A stretch of DNA of 41,713 bases, taken from positions 1 through 41,713 of the forward strand of contig CADBCV010000015.1 of the NCBI GenBank assembly GCA_902793285.1. Direction: 5' to 3'. Under the pieces are notes generated by a model. That model worked only from the letters and a program-made list of their open reading frames with translations. It had not been told where the DNA came from and did not search any database. Source of the DNA: Oscillospiraceae bacterium (GTDB lineage: Bacteria > Bacillota > Clostridia > Oscillospirales > Oscillospiraceae). Below are positions 14,552 through 33,034 of this stretch, one piece after another; the first letter of the stretch is position 1, and the number at the start of each line of letters is the position of its first letter. The position numbers and the translations under genes are program-made.

Positions 14552-15391
14552 ATGAAAGACAGACTTGCCAATTTGAAAAACCTGCTCTGGGCGGCGGCGA
14601 TTTTGCTGTGCCTCGTGGCGGTGCTGGTGGGGCTCATTTTCGCCATGTCCCAGAAGAACACGGCGGAGCGGCCCGACGGCACGCTTGTCCTCGGGCAGAT
14701 CGAGAGAGCTTCTTTGAAAAACAGCGGCGGGAGCCGGGATGTCATCGGCATGGAAACTGCCGCGGGCGCCGCGCTCAACATCCTGCCGGAGAGCAGCAAG
14801 GGCAATCTTGAATCCGTGTTCGGCATGACCTTTCTCTGCGACAGGACCGTGCAGGGCCTGCGCACCTACGCCTCCCAGTACGGCGACGGCGTGAGCGCGC
14901 AGATCTGGACGGACGACGGCGGCGGCCTTCCCGCGAAGAACGCGGCCGAGACCAGCATCGTCTTCTATGACGGCTCCCTCATCACGGCAGCCAATGCTGC
15001 GATGGTCACGCGGCCCAAGACCATGGTGCTCTATCTCGGCGGCGACGGGCTTGCCGACACGAGCGAGCAGGAGTTTATCGACGGCTACACGGCCCTCATC
15101 GACTCCATCCGCAGCGCGAGTCCCGCGACGCAGATCATCGTCTGCTCCATCGGCTCCGTGAGCAGCAACTACCAGGGCGGCGACGGGCTGGACCCCCAGC
15201 TCATCTCCCGCGCAAACGGCTGGATCAGGCAGGTCTGCATCAACACCGGCGCGTACTACGCCGATCTCGCGGCCTTCCTCAACGACGAATACGGCTTTCT
15301 CTCCGACGCGTTTCTGATGCCGGACGGCCGCAGCATCGCCGCGGCGGGCATCGCGCTCATTGTGGACTACTTTCGCTTCCACTATGTGTGA
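14552..15391 (+). CDS. Membrane-anchored SGNH-hydrolase-like protein, degenerate active site
   Basis: This encodes 279 residues. An N-terminal membrane anchor spans residues about 11-32. The extracytoplasmic part has SGNH/GDSL traits: LYLGGDGLADTSEQEFIDGY resembles block III, and ATQIIVCSIGSVSSNY and INTGAYYADLAAFLND fit later strands. The nucleophile block, normally GDS near a strand end, reads FLCDRTVQGL, and the DGxH block near the C-terminus reads DGRSIAAAGIALIVDYFRFH. Both catalytic Ser and His appear to be missing. A binding role, for example toward cell-wall glycans, is possible but unproven. It lies directly after the EF-G terminator and ends before the methionine-transport locus. Confidence 0.55.
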   Translation: MKDRLANLKNLLWAAAILLCLVAVLVGLIFAMSQKNTAERPDGTLVLGQIERASLKNSGGSRDVIGMETAAGAALNILPESSKGNLESVFGMTFLCDRTVQGLRTYASQYGDGVSAQIWTDDGGGLPAKNAAETSIVFYDGSLITAANAAMVTRPKTMVLYLGGDGLADTSEQEFIDGYTALIDSIRSASPATQIIVCSIGSVSSNYQGGDGLDPQLISRANGWIRQVCINTGAYYADLAAFLNDEYGFLSDAFLMPDGRSIAAAGIALIVDYFRFHYV

Positions 15392-15461: not shown

Positions 15462-15503
15462 TGCCCCGCCGGGCTTGACAGCGCGGCGGGGCAGATTTAT
15501 AAT
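15462..15503 (+). promoter_or_regulatory. Consensus promoter with embedded inverted repeat, upstream of the Met leader
   Basis: TTGACA (15475-15480) and TATAAT (15498-15503) are both perfect and are separated by 17 bases. A 10-bp perfect inverted repeat, TGCCCCGCCG (15462-15471) and CGGCGGGGCA (15484-15493), brackets the -35 element and fills part of the spacer. It could be a repressor operator; it lacks a U-tract, so a terminator is less likely. Transcription should start near 15510. Confidence 0.8.
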
Positions 15504-15535
15504 ACAGGCAAATCCGGGAAAGGAGCAAGGTCACG

Positions 15536-15619
15536 ATGCGTATCACGTCCGTCAACAGCATGATGATGGAGATGTACATGTGCGGCATGTGCATGATGAT
15601 GTGCGCCCTGAAATCGTGA
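15536..15619 (+). CDS. Met/Cys-rich leader peptide of the methionine transporter operon
   Basis: This 27-codon frame has 10 Met and 3 Cys. Met occupies positions 1, 9-11, 13, 15, 18 and 20-22, and Cys positions 16, 19 and 23; the densest part reads MCGMCMMMC. A clear AAAGGAG ribosome site lies at 15519-15525, ten bases before the ATG, and a consensus promoter lies just upstream. It ends at TGA 15617-15619, about 44 bases before an intrinsic terminator and 100 bases before metN. The composition and the downstream gene's substrate coincide, which is the hallmark of leader peptides in ribosome-mediated attenuation. A metal-binding micropeptide is the main alternative. Confidence 0.78.
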   Translation: MRITSVNSMMMEMYMCGMCMMMCALKS

Positions 15620-15620
15620 C

Positions 15621-15701
15621 GCTCAAGGTTCCTCTCCTGTTTGATGGAAGATAATCCGCAGGCTCGGAAACCGTTGGCGTTTTCCGGGTCTGTTTTTATT
15701 T
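15621..15701 (+). promoter_or_regulatory. Attenuator of metNIQ: intrinsic terminator and candidate antiterminator
   Basis: The arms CTCGGAAACCG (15663-15673) and CGTTTTCCGGG (15678-15688), with loop TTGG, form an 11-pair stem containing one C/U mismatch and one G-U pair. A U-rich tract follows (15689-15701). The terminator sits between the leader stop codon and the metN ribosome site (AAAGGA, 15705-15710). GGTTCC at 15627-15632 can pair with GGAAACC at 15666-15672 with one bulged A, which would break the terminator's 5' arm. This is a modest candidate antiterminator. Confidence 0.65.
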
Positions 15702-15718
15702 CCGAAAGGAACAGGCAC

Positions 15719-16708
15719 ATGATAGAGTTAAAAGAACTGTGTAAGACCTACTCCTCCTCTTCCGGGGATGTGGAGGCGCTGCGCGACATCAATCTCAGCA
15801 TCCTCGACGGCGAGATCTTCGGCATCATCGGGCTCTCCGGCGCGGGCAAGAGCACGCTTGTGCGCTGCATCAACCTCCTGGAGCGGCCGACCTCCGGCAG
15901 CGTCATCATCGACGGGCAGGACATCACCCAGCTCCCCCGGCCCGAGCTTCTGCGTATGCGCAGGACCATCTCCATGATCTTCCAGGGCTTCAACCTCCTC
16001 GAGCAGCGCAGCGTCCTGCGAAACGTGACCTTCCCGCTCGAGATCGCGGGCGTCGGAAAACAGGACGCGAGAAGCAAGGCCCTGGAGCTGTTGAAGGTCG
16101 TGGGCCTTGAGGAGAAGGCCAACGCCTATCCCTCCCAGCTCTCCGGCGGACAGAAGCAGCGCGTCGCCATCGCCCGCGCCCTCGCCTCCGACCCGCACTA
16201 CCTCCTGTGCGACGAGGCGACCTCCGCCCTCGATCCGAACACCACCCGCTCCATCCTGGAGCTTCTGCGCAGGATCAACAAGACCCTCGGCGTGACGATC
16301 GTCGTCATCACCCACGAGATGAAGGTCATCGACCAGATCTGTGACCGGGTCGCCGTCATCGACCAGAGCCGCATCGCCGAGATGGGCAAGGTCAGCGAGG
16401 TGTTCACAAGCCCCAAGTCCCAGATCGCGCGCGAGCTCATCCTCCCCCAGGACCGCGCCGCCATCGACACCACCGGCGGCAAGAAGATCCGCCTCATCTT
16501 CGACGGCTTCCAGTCGCAGGAGCCGGTCATCTCCCGCATGACGCTCGACTGTCAGGCGCCGGTCAACATCATCTTTGCCGACACGAAGGAGTTTGAGGGG
16601 ACGATCTACGGCCACATGATCGTGGAGCTGCCGAACGATGAAAACCAGGCCTCCAAGATCCTCGCCTGGCTCAAAAACAGCCCCGTCAAATGGAAGGAGG
16701 AAGACTGA
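15719..16708 (+). CDS. metN: Methionine ABC transporter ATP-binding protein MetN
   Basis: This encodes 329 residues from ATG 15719, with AAAGGA upstream; longer in-frame starts lie inside the attenuator. It energises uptake of methionine (often both D and L isomers) with MetI and MetQ. It has Walker A GLSGAGKST (38-46), the signature LSGGQKQRVAIARAL, and Walker B followed by DEATSALDP. The C-terminal NIL domain (about 255-329, including LDCQAPVNIIFA and WLKNSPVKWKEED) is the known methionine-sensing domain that gives trans-inhibition of MetNI. The stop overlaps the metI start as TGATG. It is controlled by the Met-rich leader upstream, by inference. Confidence 0.93.
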   Translation: MIELKELCKTYSSSSGDVEALRDINLSILDGEIFGIIGLSGAGKSTLVRCINLLERPTSGSVIIDGQDITQLPRPELLRMRRTISMIFQGFNLLEQRSVLRNVTFPLEIAGVGKQDARSKALELLKVVGLEEKANAYPSQLSGGQKQRVAIARALASDPHYLLCDEATSALDPNTTRSILELLRRINKTLGVTIVVITHEMKVIDQICDRVAVIDQSRIAEMGKVSEVFTSPKSQIARELILPQDRAAIDTTGGKKIRLIFDGFQSQEPVISRMTLDCQAPVNIIFADTKEFEGTIYGHMIVELPNDENQASKILAWLKNSPVKWKEED

Positions 16709-17388
16709 TGCTCTCCGAAACCTTTTACAAGCTCTGGAACGCGGGCATCCTCCAGCGCGGCATCTGGGAGACGATCTACATGACGCTCATCTCCACCGCC
16801 ATCTCCTATGGGATCGGCCTGCCGCTCGGCGTGGTGCTCAACGTGACGGACCGGGAGGGGATCTACCCCATCGCGTGGCTCAACCGCGTGCTCGGCGTGA
16901 TCGTGAATTTCTTCCGCTCCATCCCCTTCATCATCCTGATGGTCGCGATGCTGCCGGTGGCAAAGTTCATCGTGGGCACCTCCCTCGGCAACAGCGCCAT
17001 GATCGTCATGCTCGTCATCGCGGCCTCCCCCTACATCGCCCGCATGGTGGAATCCTCCCTCAAGGAGGTGGACGCCGGCGTCATCGAGGCCGCCCAGTCC
17101 ATGGGGGCCAACAACCTCCAGATCGTCGTGAAGGTCCTGCTGCCGGAGGCAAAGCCCTCGCTCATCATGGGGGCGGTGATCTCCATGGTCACGATCCTCG
17201 GCTACTCCGCCATGTCCTCCACCATCGGGGGCACCGGCCTCGGCCAGATCGCCATCAGCTACGGCCACCAGCGCTTCAATCCCGACATCAAGTGGATCTG
17301 TGTTTTTCTGACTGTAATAATCGTCCAGATTATTCAGGAGGTGGGGACCGCCATCGCGCACCGCACCGATAAACGAATTTCCCGCTAA
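16708..17388 (+). CDS. metI: Methionine ABC transporter permease MetI
   Basis: This encodes 226 residues with about five membrane helices and the permease EAA loop seen as EAAQSMGANNLQIVVKVLLP, which docks on MetN. ATG 16708 overlaps the metN stop by one base, and GGAGG lies about 10 bases upstream, inside metN. Length and the N-terminal WETIYMTLISTAISYGIGLPLG segment fit MetI. It is followed after 24 bases by metQ. Confidence 0.93.
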   Translation: MLSETFYKLWNAGILQRGIWETIYMTLISTAISYGIGLPLGVVLNVTDREGIYPIAWLNRVLGVIVNFFRSIPFIILMVAMLPVAKFIVGTSLGNSAMIVMLVIAASPYIARMVESSLKEVDAGVIEAAQSMGANNLQIVVKVLLPEAKPSLIMGAVISMVTILGYSAMSSTIGGTGLGQIAISYGHQRFNPDIKWICVFLTVIIVQIIQEVGTAIAHRTDKRISR

Positions 17389-17412: not shown

Positions 17413-18231
17413 ATGAAGAAAACCATCGCTCTCATCCTCTGCGCAGTTCTGCTCGTTTCCGTACTCTCCGCCTCGGCCTTCGCCGCCGACAAGAATGTGA
17501 AGCTCAAGATCGGCGCAAGCTCCACTCCCCACGCGGAGCTGCTTGAGATCGTGAAGCCCAAGCTCGCCGAGCAGGGCATCGACCTCGACATCGTGATCTA
17601 TGACGACTACGTGCTGCCCAACACCGCCCTGCAGGACGGCACCCTGGACGCAAACTACTTCCAGCACGCCCCCTACATGAACAGCTTCAATGAGGCAAAC
17701 GGTACCGACCTCGTCTCGGCCGGTCTCGTCCACTACGAGCCCATGGGCATCTACAGCGCGAGCCTCAAGGATCTCAAGGAGCTCGGCAAGGGCGCGACGA
17801 TCCTTGTCCCCGACGACGTGTCCAACCAGACCCGCGCCCTGCTTCTCCTCCAGCAGGAGGAGCTGATCGTCCTGCCCGAGGACGCCTCCGTTGAGACCGC
17901 CCCCTCCGTCCTCGACATTGTGGACGCCAAGGGCTACAACGTCCAGGCCGCCCAGGCCGACACCCTGCCCTCCCTGCTGAAGAACAGCGCCAAGGGCACC
18001 ATCGCCGTCATCAACTACAACTACGCGCTGGAAGGCGGCTTCAAGACCACCGACGCCCTCGCCATCGAGGATGCCTCCGGCAACGCCGCCCAGACCTACG
18101 CGAACCTCGTGGCCGTCCGCCGCGGCGATGAGAACCGTCCCGAGATCAAGGCCCTGATCGAGGCCCTGCAGGACGGCGCTGTTGAGACCTTCAACGAGCA
18201 GACCGGCGCCGGCATCGTCTCCATCAAGTAA
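17413..18231 (+). CDS. metQ: Methionine-binding protein MetQ (NlpA family)
   Basis: This encodes 272 residues with ribosome site AAAGGAG. It has the NlpA/MetQ type-2 binding-protein fold: KIGASSTPHAELLEIVKPK, DGTLDANYFQHAPYMNSFN, and VPDDVSNQTRALLLLQ, which contact the amino acid in characterised members. The signal peptide ends in SASAFA-A, a type I site; no lipobox cysteine follows. Monoderm MetQ proteins are usually lipoproteins, so the anchoring here is unusual. A strong terminator follows. The final gene of metNIQ. Confidence 0.93.
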   Translation: MKKTIALILCAVLLVSVLSASAFAADKNVKLKIGASSTPHAELLEIVKPKLAEQGIDLDIVIYDDYVLPNTALQDGTLDANYFQHAPYMNSFNEANGTDLVSAGLVHYEPMGIYSASLKDLKELGKGATILVPDDVSNQTRALLLLQQEELIVLPEDASVETAPSVLDIVDAKGYNVQAAQADTLPSLLKNSAKGTIAVINYNYALEGGFKTTDALAIEDASGNAAQTYANLVAVRRGDENRPEIKALIEALQDGAVETFNEQTGAGIVSIK

Positions 18232-31671: not shown

Positions 31672-31855
31672 AGAATAGACTGTAATTTCCATGGCCCTCC
31701 GCCACTCCACTTTCTGGCGGACGGCACATGAAAAAAGGAGGAGTAAAAACGCCCTGGCTCGGGCTGCGGCAGTGTGGAGACCTGTCGTACATGCGGAGAC
31801 GCAAGTCCCCGTGAGGGCACATCAGGCGGAGGCCGTGTGTCCGGAGCCGGAAAAG

Positions 31856-33034
31856 ATGGCAACAGTTCAGCTCAGAAACATCAAGAAAGTCTACCCCTTC
31901 ATCAGCGGCGAACAGAAGAAGAACAAGAAGAAAGCGGACGAGCCCGAAAAGAAGAAGGCAAACCTCCAGATCACCGACGAAGGCGTCGTCGCGGTGCAGG
32001 CGTTCAACCTGGACATCGCGGACAAGGAATTCATCGTCCTGGTCGGCCCCTCCGGCTGCGGCAAGTCCACCACGCTGCGCATGGTGGCGGGCCTGGAGGA
32101 GATCTCCGGCGGTGAGCTTGTCATCGACGGCAAGGTCATGAACGACGTGGCCCCCAAGGACCGCGACATCGCCATGGTTTTCCAGAACTATGCCCTCTAT
32201 CCTCACATGACCGTGTATGAAAACATGGCCTTCTCCCTGAAGCTCAGAAAGGAGCCCAAGGACGTCATCGACAAGAAGGTCCGCGAGGCGGCCGAGATTC
32301 TCGACATCACCCAGTACCTCGAACGCAAGCCCAAGGCCCTCTCCGGCGGCCAGCGCCAGCGCGTCGCCATCGGCCGCGCCATCGTGCGCGACCCGAAGGT
32401 CATGCTCATGGACGAGCCGCTCTCCAACCTCGACGCCAAGCTCCGCAACGAAATGCGCGCCGAGATCATCAAGCTGCGCCAGCGCATCAACACCACCTTC
32501 ATGTACGTCACCCACGACCAGACCGAGGCCATGACCCTGGGCGACCGCATCGTCATCATGAAGGACGGCTACATCCAGCAGATCGGCACCCCCCAGGAGG
32601 TCTTCGACCATCCGGCGAACCTCTTCGTCGCGGGCTTCATCGGGATGCCCGTCATGAACTTCTTCGATGCCGAGCTCAAGCGTGACGGCAAGAAGTACTT
32701 TGTTGAGGTCGGCGGCTACCGCACCGAGCTTGACAGTGAGAAGGAAGCGCGCCTCGCTTCTCACGATGTCCAGTCCCAGCCCATCACCCTGGGCGTGCGC
32801 CCCGAGCATACCGACGTTGCCGACGACGGCATCTCCGCCAAGGTCGAGGTCGCCGAAATGATGGGCTCCTCCGTCCACCTGCACGTCAACGCCAACGGCC
32901 GCGATGTCATCATCATCGTCCCCACCATCGACATGAAGGGCAACTACAAGCTGGGCGACACCGTCCACTTCACCTTCAGCGGCAGAGTGGCCCACGTCTT
33001 CTCCAAGCAGACCGACAAGAACCTCGAGTACTGA
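31856..33034 (+). CDS. Sugar ABC transporter ATPase, MsmX/UgpC type
   Basis: This encodes 392 residues from ATG 31856, with GGAG ten bases upstream. It has Walker A GPSGCGKST (64-72), Q-loop FQNYALYPHMTVYENMAFSL, signature LSGGQRQRVAIGRA, Walker B MLMDEPLSNLDAKLR, and a C-terminal OB/TOBE regulatory domain (about 240-392). In many Firmicutes one MsmX serves several importers; here a dedicated copy lies in the locus. Odd: a Lys-rich insert of about 20 residues (about 18-38) splits the N-terminal beta strands. It should energise the LplB/LplC-type permeases. Confidence 0.92.
   Translation: MATVQLRNIKKVYPFISGEQKKNKKKADEPEKKKANLQITDEGVVAVQAFNLDIADKEFIVLVGPSGCGKSTTLRMVAGLEEISGGELVIDGKVMNDVAPKDRDIAMVFQNYALYPHMTVYENMAFSLKLRKEPKDVIDKKVREAAEILDITQYLERKPKALSGGQRQRVAIGRAIVRDPKVMLMDEPLSNLDAKLRNEMRAEIIKLRQRINTTFMYVTHDQTEAMTLGDRIVIMKDGYIQQIGTPQEVFDHPANLFVAGFIGMPVMNFFDAELKRDGKKYFVEVGGYRTELDSEKEARLASHDVQSQPITLGVRPEHTDVADDGISAKVEVAEMMGSSVHLHVNANGRDVIIIVPTIDMKGNYKLGDTVHFTFSGRVAHVFSKQTDKNLEY

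Follow-up and report, generated by a model that had tools for sequence, protein, structure and literature searches.

A short leader in front of the metNIQ genes of an Oscillospiraceae bacterium is very probably a ribosome-mediated transcription attenuator, reading the charging of elongator tRNA-Met and controlling a methionine importer. It lies within a window of 41,713 nucleotides (the whole stretch of DNA that was analyzed), where it is placed complete between a hypothetical gene (14552-15391) and metN. Sequence and comparison with relatives establish the parts of the element, the reading frame and its Met codons, the conservation of the terminator, and the covariation of two alternative helices. 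A preliminary description of this DNA had proposed methionine-responsive attenuation by a leader peptide, and the conserved Met-rich leaders and terminators of relatives support this as the best-fitting mechanism class.

The leader and the genes behind it

The features of the region are listed in Table 1. The perfect promoter, the ribosome site, and the 27-codon frame with 10 Met and 3 Cys codons that had been described earlier are all present. For the promoter call, 1.1 promoter-like sites are expected in shuffles at a looser threshold over the 3.6 kb scanned. The leader frame ranks second by Met fraction among the window's 299 ATG frames of 12-100 amino acids, the first being a frame of 14 codons. 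The terminator had been placed at 15663-15701, which is roughly the same element, with the hairpin actually occupying 15658-15693 ahead of the T-rich tract. The terminator region (15655-15712) is more stable than its shuffles (z = -3.5). The consensus scan that lists the promoter does not list the terminator. The leader has no match in Pfam and none in Rfam at gathering scores; at E up to 10, it yields only chance-like Rfam matches such as snoU13.

Table 1. Features of the metNIQ leader region, in window coordinates.
Feature	Position	Strand	Basis
Sigma-70-type promoter, TTGACA-17-TATAAT	15475-15503	+	12/12 consensus match
Segment 1: ribosome site, start codon, and first codons of the leader; partner 15601-15639 (1:2 helix)	15515-15543	+	duplex of -32.8 kcal/mol, 27 pairs
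Shine-Dalgarno (SD) AAGGAG	15520-15525	+	sequence
Leader ORF MRITSVNSMMMEMYMCGMCMMMCALKS	15536-15619 (stop TGA 15617-15619)	+	27 codons
Met/Cys codon cluster, proposed ribosome stall site	15560-15601	+	9 of 14 codons Met, 2 Cys
Inner hairpin inside the Met cluster, AUGUACAUGU / GCAUGUGCAU	15572-15594	+	duplex computation
Segment 2: antiterminator strand, partly under a ribosome sitting on the leader stop	15618-15640	+	19-pair duplex with 15658-15681, -22.1 kcal/mol
Segment 3: terminator 5' arm and loop; partner is segment 2 (antiterminator) or segment 4	15658-15681	+	fold and duplex computation
Intrinsic terminator: hairpin and T-rich tract	15658-15701	+	-20.7 kcal/mol alone
metN-like ABC transporter ATPase	15719-16708	+	best NCBIfam TIGR02314 MetN, 364 bits; cut-off of 499.7 not reached
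metI-like permease	16708-17388	+	NF008049 MetI, 212 bits; cut-off 212
metQ-like substrate-binding lipoprotein	17413-18231	+	PF03180 NlpA lipoprotein, 224.8 bits; above cut-off

The start of metN, given earlier as 15721, is corrected to 15719. The metQ-like protein scores 131 bits against TIGR00363, which is under the cut-off. Because MetN and MetQ both score under their NCBIfam cut-offs, methionine is the presumed cargo of the transporter. The genes behind the leaders, in the window and in relatives, belong to methionine metabolism as judged by sequence family. Farther along the window, at 31687-31861 (+), lies a member of a known cis-regulatory RNA family, malK-I RNA (RF03069, 136 bits).

An inverted repeat, TGCCCCGCCG...CGGCGGGGCA, surrounds the -35 box of the leader promoter (window 15462-15493). 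In the nearest relatives (L003, L004, L085, L088), its arms diverge yet remain complementary, and most other leaders have only short stems at this position.

Alternative helices and the proposed mechanism

Segment 2 of the leader RNA has a choice of partners. The earlier pairing scheme, in which GGTTCC (15627-15632) pairs with 15666-15672, holds in that this pairing is present inside the 19-pair 2:3 helix; the scheme overlooked the 1:2 helix, which by duplex computation sequesters the SD and start codon of the leader itself. The 2:3 helix is incompatible with both the 1:2 helix and the terminator (3:4), with computed energies of -22.1 versus -32.8 and -20.7 kcal/mol. The minimum-energy fold of the free leader contains the 1:2 helix and the terminator, and it is more stable than the folds of shuffled leaders (z -3.8). 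The inner hairpin is also well kept, with the outer nine pairs found in 50 or 51 of 51 aligned leaders and the innermost pair in 43; its role is perhaps polymerase pausing. Taking inner hairpin and terminator together, 12 of 20 predicted pairs show two-sided changes in some leader.

Pairing was examined in 52 leaders, which are the 56 terminator-bearing leaders minus four with weak chosen hairpins (L003, L021, L024, L084). Covariation was measured by swapping partners between leaders and comparing the mean native duplex energy with permuted means. For 47 representatives, less than 72% alike (difflib ratio) and drawn from the close and divergent groups, the 1:2 helix has a native mean of -20.2 versus -15.7 permuted (sd 0.44), and the 2:3 helix -14.0 versus -12.2 (sd 0.34), with 0 of 5000 permutations as low in either case; a few of the script-picked hairpins among these representatives, such as that of L173, are not the obvious terminator. 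For all 52 leaders, the means are -22.7 versus -17.6 (sd 0.43) for 1:2 and -14.5 versus -13.5 (sd 0.30) for 2:3, where the lowest of 2000 permutations was -14.63 and at least one thus reached the native value. The 2:3 signal is weaker than that of 1:2: the native partner tops its row in 2 of the 47 representatives for 2:3 (median rank 14) and in 7 of them for 1:2 (median rank 5). With the native partner so seldom ranked first, individual leaders say little, and the case for pairing lies in the aggregate. In aggregate, both helices covary, as expected of a protector and an antiterminator that exclude one another. In the sulfhydrylase-type leaders, the segment 2 letters UCCGAUAUGUUCUCC stand opposite the terminator's GGAGACUUUAUCGGA.

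From this architecture, we infer that the leader is translated, that ribosomes stall on it, and that read-through of the terminator follows a methionine signal. When Met-tRNA is ample, the ribosome would pass the Met cluster, reach the stop codon, and cover segment 2, so that the terminator ends transcription before metN. When Met-tRNA is scarce, ribosomes would stall in the cluster with the 1:2 helix open, the 2:3 helix would form, and transcription would enter metNIQ. When no ribosome is present, the 1:2 helix would form, the leader's ribosome site would be hidden, and the terminator would form. The Cys codons may add a second input.

Ribosome positions were modeled with an assumed footprint. 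A ribosome on the stop codon covers 6 nt or more of the antiterminator strand in 45 of the 52 leaders, with 7 exceptions; a ribosome halted in the cluster leaves that strand free for a median of 9 of 9 Met codons. A constrained nascent-RNA model gives a mean of 2.5 expected 2:3 pairs with the ribosome at the stop, 7.3 with no ribosome, and 13.3 with the cluster and segment 1 covered, and the first and last of these states differ in the same direction in 52 of 52 leaders. A single stalled footprint hardly changes the value (7.9 versus 7.3 without a ribosome), which means that segment 1 must be kept away, presumably by steric hindrance or by the next ribosome on its SD. A stalled ribosome with a second one loading behind it would thus be what holds segment 1 off segment 2. 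Because the terminator is always stable, kinetic competition is assumed.

Met codons as the likely sensor

The position of its start speaks for translation of the leader frame. When the start codon nearest the ribosome site was picked without regard to frame in 52 leaders, three of which have no SD motif, the start was in frame with the Met cluster in all 49 scored leaders. The distances from start to cluster are 18, 21, 24, 27, and 30 nt, together with two trivial cases of 0. The 52 leaders contain 9-12 Met codons and 0-6 Cys codons (median 3), and the alignments have the Met cluster as their conserved core. In the N-terminal codons of 35 nearest pairs, there are 82 nonsynonymous and 13 synonymous differences, and in the part from start to cluster, the third codon positions change least (52 of 255 differences), reciprocal pairs being counted twice in both tallies. 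Low third-position change is the opposite of what an ordinary conserved protein gives, and pure RNA constraint could also produce it. Since the non-Met residues vary freely, the Met codons rather than a conserved peptide look like the sensor. The leader is read here as translated, with selection acting on codons and RNA rather than on the peptide.

A general sulfur or cysteine attenuator, with Cys codons as the main sensor and Met codons as a secondary one, is an improbable account. The median of 3 Cys codons would suit it, as would the Cys and Met codons of the Streptomyces metL leader (PMC8079986) and the sulfhydrylases downstream in relatives. The Met codons number at least 9 in every one of the 52 leaders, however, while Cys codons go down to 0 in some, and the sister genes carry T-boxes with an apparent AUG specifier.

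Arrest of the ribosome by the nascent peptide, with Met-rich residues sensing methionine or SAM in the exit tunnel, is somewhat less probable still. TnaC provides a precedent for arrest peptides, for tryptophan, and some non-Met residues do recur near the end of the cluster (e.g., RAQK). The excess of nonsynonymous over synonymous differences argues against a conserved peptide, as does the fact that divergent leaders have little in common beyond Met/Cys content. In two leaders the conserved tail falls in a different reading frame: the UCCGAUAUGUUCUCC letters recur in L192, and nearly the same letters in L181, which argues that RNA and not peptide is conserved there and suits an antiterminator strand. 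Examined by codon position, peptide arrest was not supported.

A ligand-binding RNA, with the AUG repeats serving as untranslated letters of a new riboswitch for methionine or SAM, must be judged very unlikely and ranks slightly lower again. It would account for the fold that outscores its shuffles, for the inner hairpin kept in nearly all 51 leaders, and for the low variation of third codon positions. It would leave unexplained why the SD-proximal start is in frame in all 49 leaders scored and why leader lengths differ by whole codons. The sequence of the 1:2 stem changes freely, nothing other than the Met codons forms a fixed core such as an aptamer would have, and Rfam yields no match at gathering scores and, with E relaxed to 10, chance-like ones only. 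A metal- or redox-sensing Met/Cys-rich peptide (e.g., for copper) that stands before an ABC transporter by chance is exceedingly improbable, for although MCxMCM-like motifs resemble metal ligands, the residues between Met are not conserved and 40 of 43 inspected loci found with leader model R1 precede methionine or homocysteine genes (30 by blastp, 2 by NCBIfam, 8 by eye).

Relatives, T-boxes, and known attenuators

The proposed Met-tRNA attenuator recurs among relatives. The absence of a conserved frame, or of conserved Met codons, among relatives had been named earlier as evidence that would count against attenuation; the comparison finds Met-rich leaders recurring in both genus and family, and a strong terminator accompanies most of them. 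MetN was searched for in 61 genomes (the organism's own and 60 of its genus), giving matches in 50 genomes and 60 match rows; the 50 metN loci examined (30 + 20) cover 52 of the 60 rows, with 8 rows left out. A Met-rich leader precedes 31 of these 50 loci (24 + 7; one cut by a contig end). The remaining 19 are leaderless and comprise 8 with a T-box over the Rfam cut-off, one with a T-box by eye (L038), and 10 with neither.

With E up to 1e-3, model R1 matches 69 of the 102 genomes of the genus and 59 of the 300 of the family, the latter in 30 of 106 genera; these tallies are model hits, which include as uninspected 20 genus loci (L114-L133) and hits without a locus, among them the weaker half or so of those in the family. 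With a limit of 1e-4 and with the own genome included, it matches 10 of 295 order genomes, two of the ten being chance, and 5 of 341 class genomes. The 43 R1 loci inspected come from family, order, and class (L134-L176, window included). By blastp, 21 precede metN and 9 precede metQ, and by eye, 2 more metN and 2 more MetQ-like genes lie downstream. Six precede O-acetylhomoserine sulfhydrylase genes (2 NCBIfam-confirmed, 4 by eye), and two (L168 and L170) are chance matches on inspection. In the last, L171, a Met/Cys-rich leader and terminator stand before an M20-type amidohydrolase, possibly a sulfur-recycling enzyme under the same control.

Model R2, built from 27 divergent leaders, matches 13 of 341 class genomes and 11 of 249 phylum genomes. 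Seven of the 24 loci inspected are leader-like: four (L177, L178, L179, and L183) are already-known places, L190 is a second place in a known genome, and L181 and L192 are new. The other 17 are chance, most of them in long or repeat-rich frames. The spread of the two models indicates a device common in one family and scattered beyond it. A DNA core-pattern scan of 84,980 species, each represented by one genome, returned 61 stretches, 53 of which are short Met-rich frames, 52 with an SD-like motif. Behind these frames, metN or metQ follows in 49 cases, and the other 4 run off the available stretch. Their records are from Oscillospiraceae, Ruminococcaceae, Clostridiales, Clostridia, Eubacteriales, and similar groups, with one uncultured bacterium; the 8 stretches that are chance and not leaders are in records of other groups. 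Plasmid and phage collections contain no match to the leader. Among viral contigs there is one match (L113, an IMG/VR contig), with a Met leader before metQ and metN genes, representing either host DNA or a transporter on a mobile element.

The signals around the frame recur as well. A promoter of the same kind is found upstream of 54 of 56 related leaders, with a 17-base spacer in 49 of the 54. A terminator-like hairpin is present in 56 of 59 related leaders (60 rows minus L078, a chance frame) and is below -12 kcal/mol in 52; the scan gives no terminator in L042, L101, and L110, the last of which runs off its locus. Among divergent leaders, 34 of 37 have a terminator. The sets of chosen leaders number 51 (A1), 45 (A2), and 27 (A3). 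Some genomes carry more than one leader: in one record (L095), two leaders 4.5 kb apart precede different transporters, and genome G821 has two, both before sulfhydrylases.

Several variants were observed. At L030, metN has a promoter, ribosome site, and terminator with a leader that reads MRN-stop and lacks the Met cluster, perhaps a decayed attenuator. The nearest relative, L003, has ~190 extra bases between the attenuator terminator and metN. Behind the terminator of sulfhydrylase-type and some metQ-type leaders (L164, L165, L167, L172-L175, L181) is a second mini-frame of conserved sequence (like MENYFEKLVRANFRFGRMC), with no credible Pfam match for the one example searched. In L172, Rfam reports a tRNA of 59.9 bits on the strand opposite part of this mini-frame (1764-1836), at coordinates that are just upstream in leader orientation. 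Repeated TAGGTAA / TTACCTA-like boxes surround the promoter of L164, L165, L167, L172-L175, L177, L178, and L190; they resemble a repressor operator placed on top of the attenuator.

In Bacillota, control of methionine genes is generally attributed to S-box, SMK, or T-box RNAs. None of the 31 leader-bearing metN loci, the window included, has an Rfam element over the cut-off, be it T-box or SAM-I (RF00162). SAM-I occurs in 36 of the 41 genus genomes searched; the search found none in the incomplete genome to which the window belongs. The 19 leaderless loci were scanned against Rfam in two rounds (17, then the other 2), and a T-box (RF00230) is over the cut-off before 8 of the first 17. T-boxes bind tRNA directly and require no translation. 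Four of them, when aligned, carry GAAC-AUG-G at what we take to be the specifier place, and the same letters are readable in the other T-boxes. By this AUG specifier, the T-boxes of sister metN genes are apparently Met-specific; they would read the charging of tRNA-Met before the same gene, as the Met leader would.

Leaders and T-boxes are interspersed on a MetN tree of 68 rows (4 of 72 loci dropped). Rows from beyond the genus that carry a leader entered the tree through searches for leaders, which biases the proportions of leaders and T-boxes towards leaders. In the labels, L062 counts as a leader, doubtfully, as its MetN is not directly behind the leader, and the T-box of L038 was recognized by eye. 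The T-box label (9 rows) requires 5 changes, of which well supported branches force at least 4; for the leader label, the corresponding numbers are 10 and at least 9. The T-box row L049 groups with leader rows L103, L104, and L112, and L038 with the leader row L039. Two unlike devices, both would-be readers of tRNA-Met, thus seem to replace each other before metN.

Ribosome-mediated attenuators with leader peptides are known from the trp, his, ilv, and leu operons. The Met leader resembles these in its short frame rich in the sensed codons, its SD, its alternating 1:2, 2:3, and 3:4 pairings, and a terminator before the first gene. It would differ in sensing methionine, which is also the initiator of translation, and in controlling a transporter, and it has its own ribosome site as segment 1. 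In Bacillota, Rli60 of Listeria monocytogenes ilv-leu is described as a ribosome-mediated attenuator with leader peptide, antiterminator, and terminator, tested by mutants (PMC5864092); it serves branched-chain amino acids and a biosynthetic operon. Histidine leader peptides have been proposed as a T-box replacement at hisS-type genes of bacilli (PMC2965389). As with the Met leader, a leader peptide there stands where relatives have a T-box, also in Bacillota, but the amino acid is histidine and the genes are of the aminoacyl-tRNA synthetase type.

A leader peptide upstream of metNIQ was proposed in 2021 for Streptomyces lividans, an actinobacterium (metL; PMC8079986). The proposed peptide has 29 amino acids with 3 Cys and a leaderless start, and its authors report that a typical Rho-independent terminator is missing. 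Compared by the published peptide, metL has 2 internal Met versus 9 in the window leader. The preliminary description knew of no such metNIQ attenuator in Clostridia. That stands for Clostridia, where searches of open-licence PMC papers yielded no methionine attenuator, and is qualified by the Streptomyces proposal. The class of attenuation is known and one proposed metNIQ leader of Streptomyces is in print; the assignment of the present leader to this class is made with high confidence, on comparative grounds.

A more tentative picture, to which we give rather less than even weight, is that of a clostridial family of methionine attenuators that is interchangeable with Met T-boxes, controls both import (metNIQ, metQ) and synthesis (sulfhydrylase), and has a built-in band-pass. 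The band-pass would be possible because methionine is both the sensed residue and the initiator. A moderate shortage of elongator Met-tRNA would stall ribosomes and open the operon. A severe shortage would block initiation, the 1:2 helix would shut the leader's own ribosome site, and the operon would close.

A lineage of gut bacteria thus seems to gauge methionine by the translating ribosome, exchanging this device with T-boxes before the same gene. The exchange amounts to a natural experiment in the mutual replacement of unlike sensors, in the unusual case that the sensed amino acid also starts translation. As the leader is short and matches neither Rfam nor Pfam, its recognition should help to annotate methionine regulation in uncultured Clostridia.
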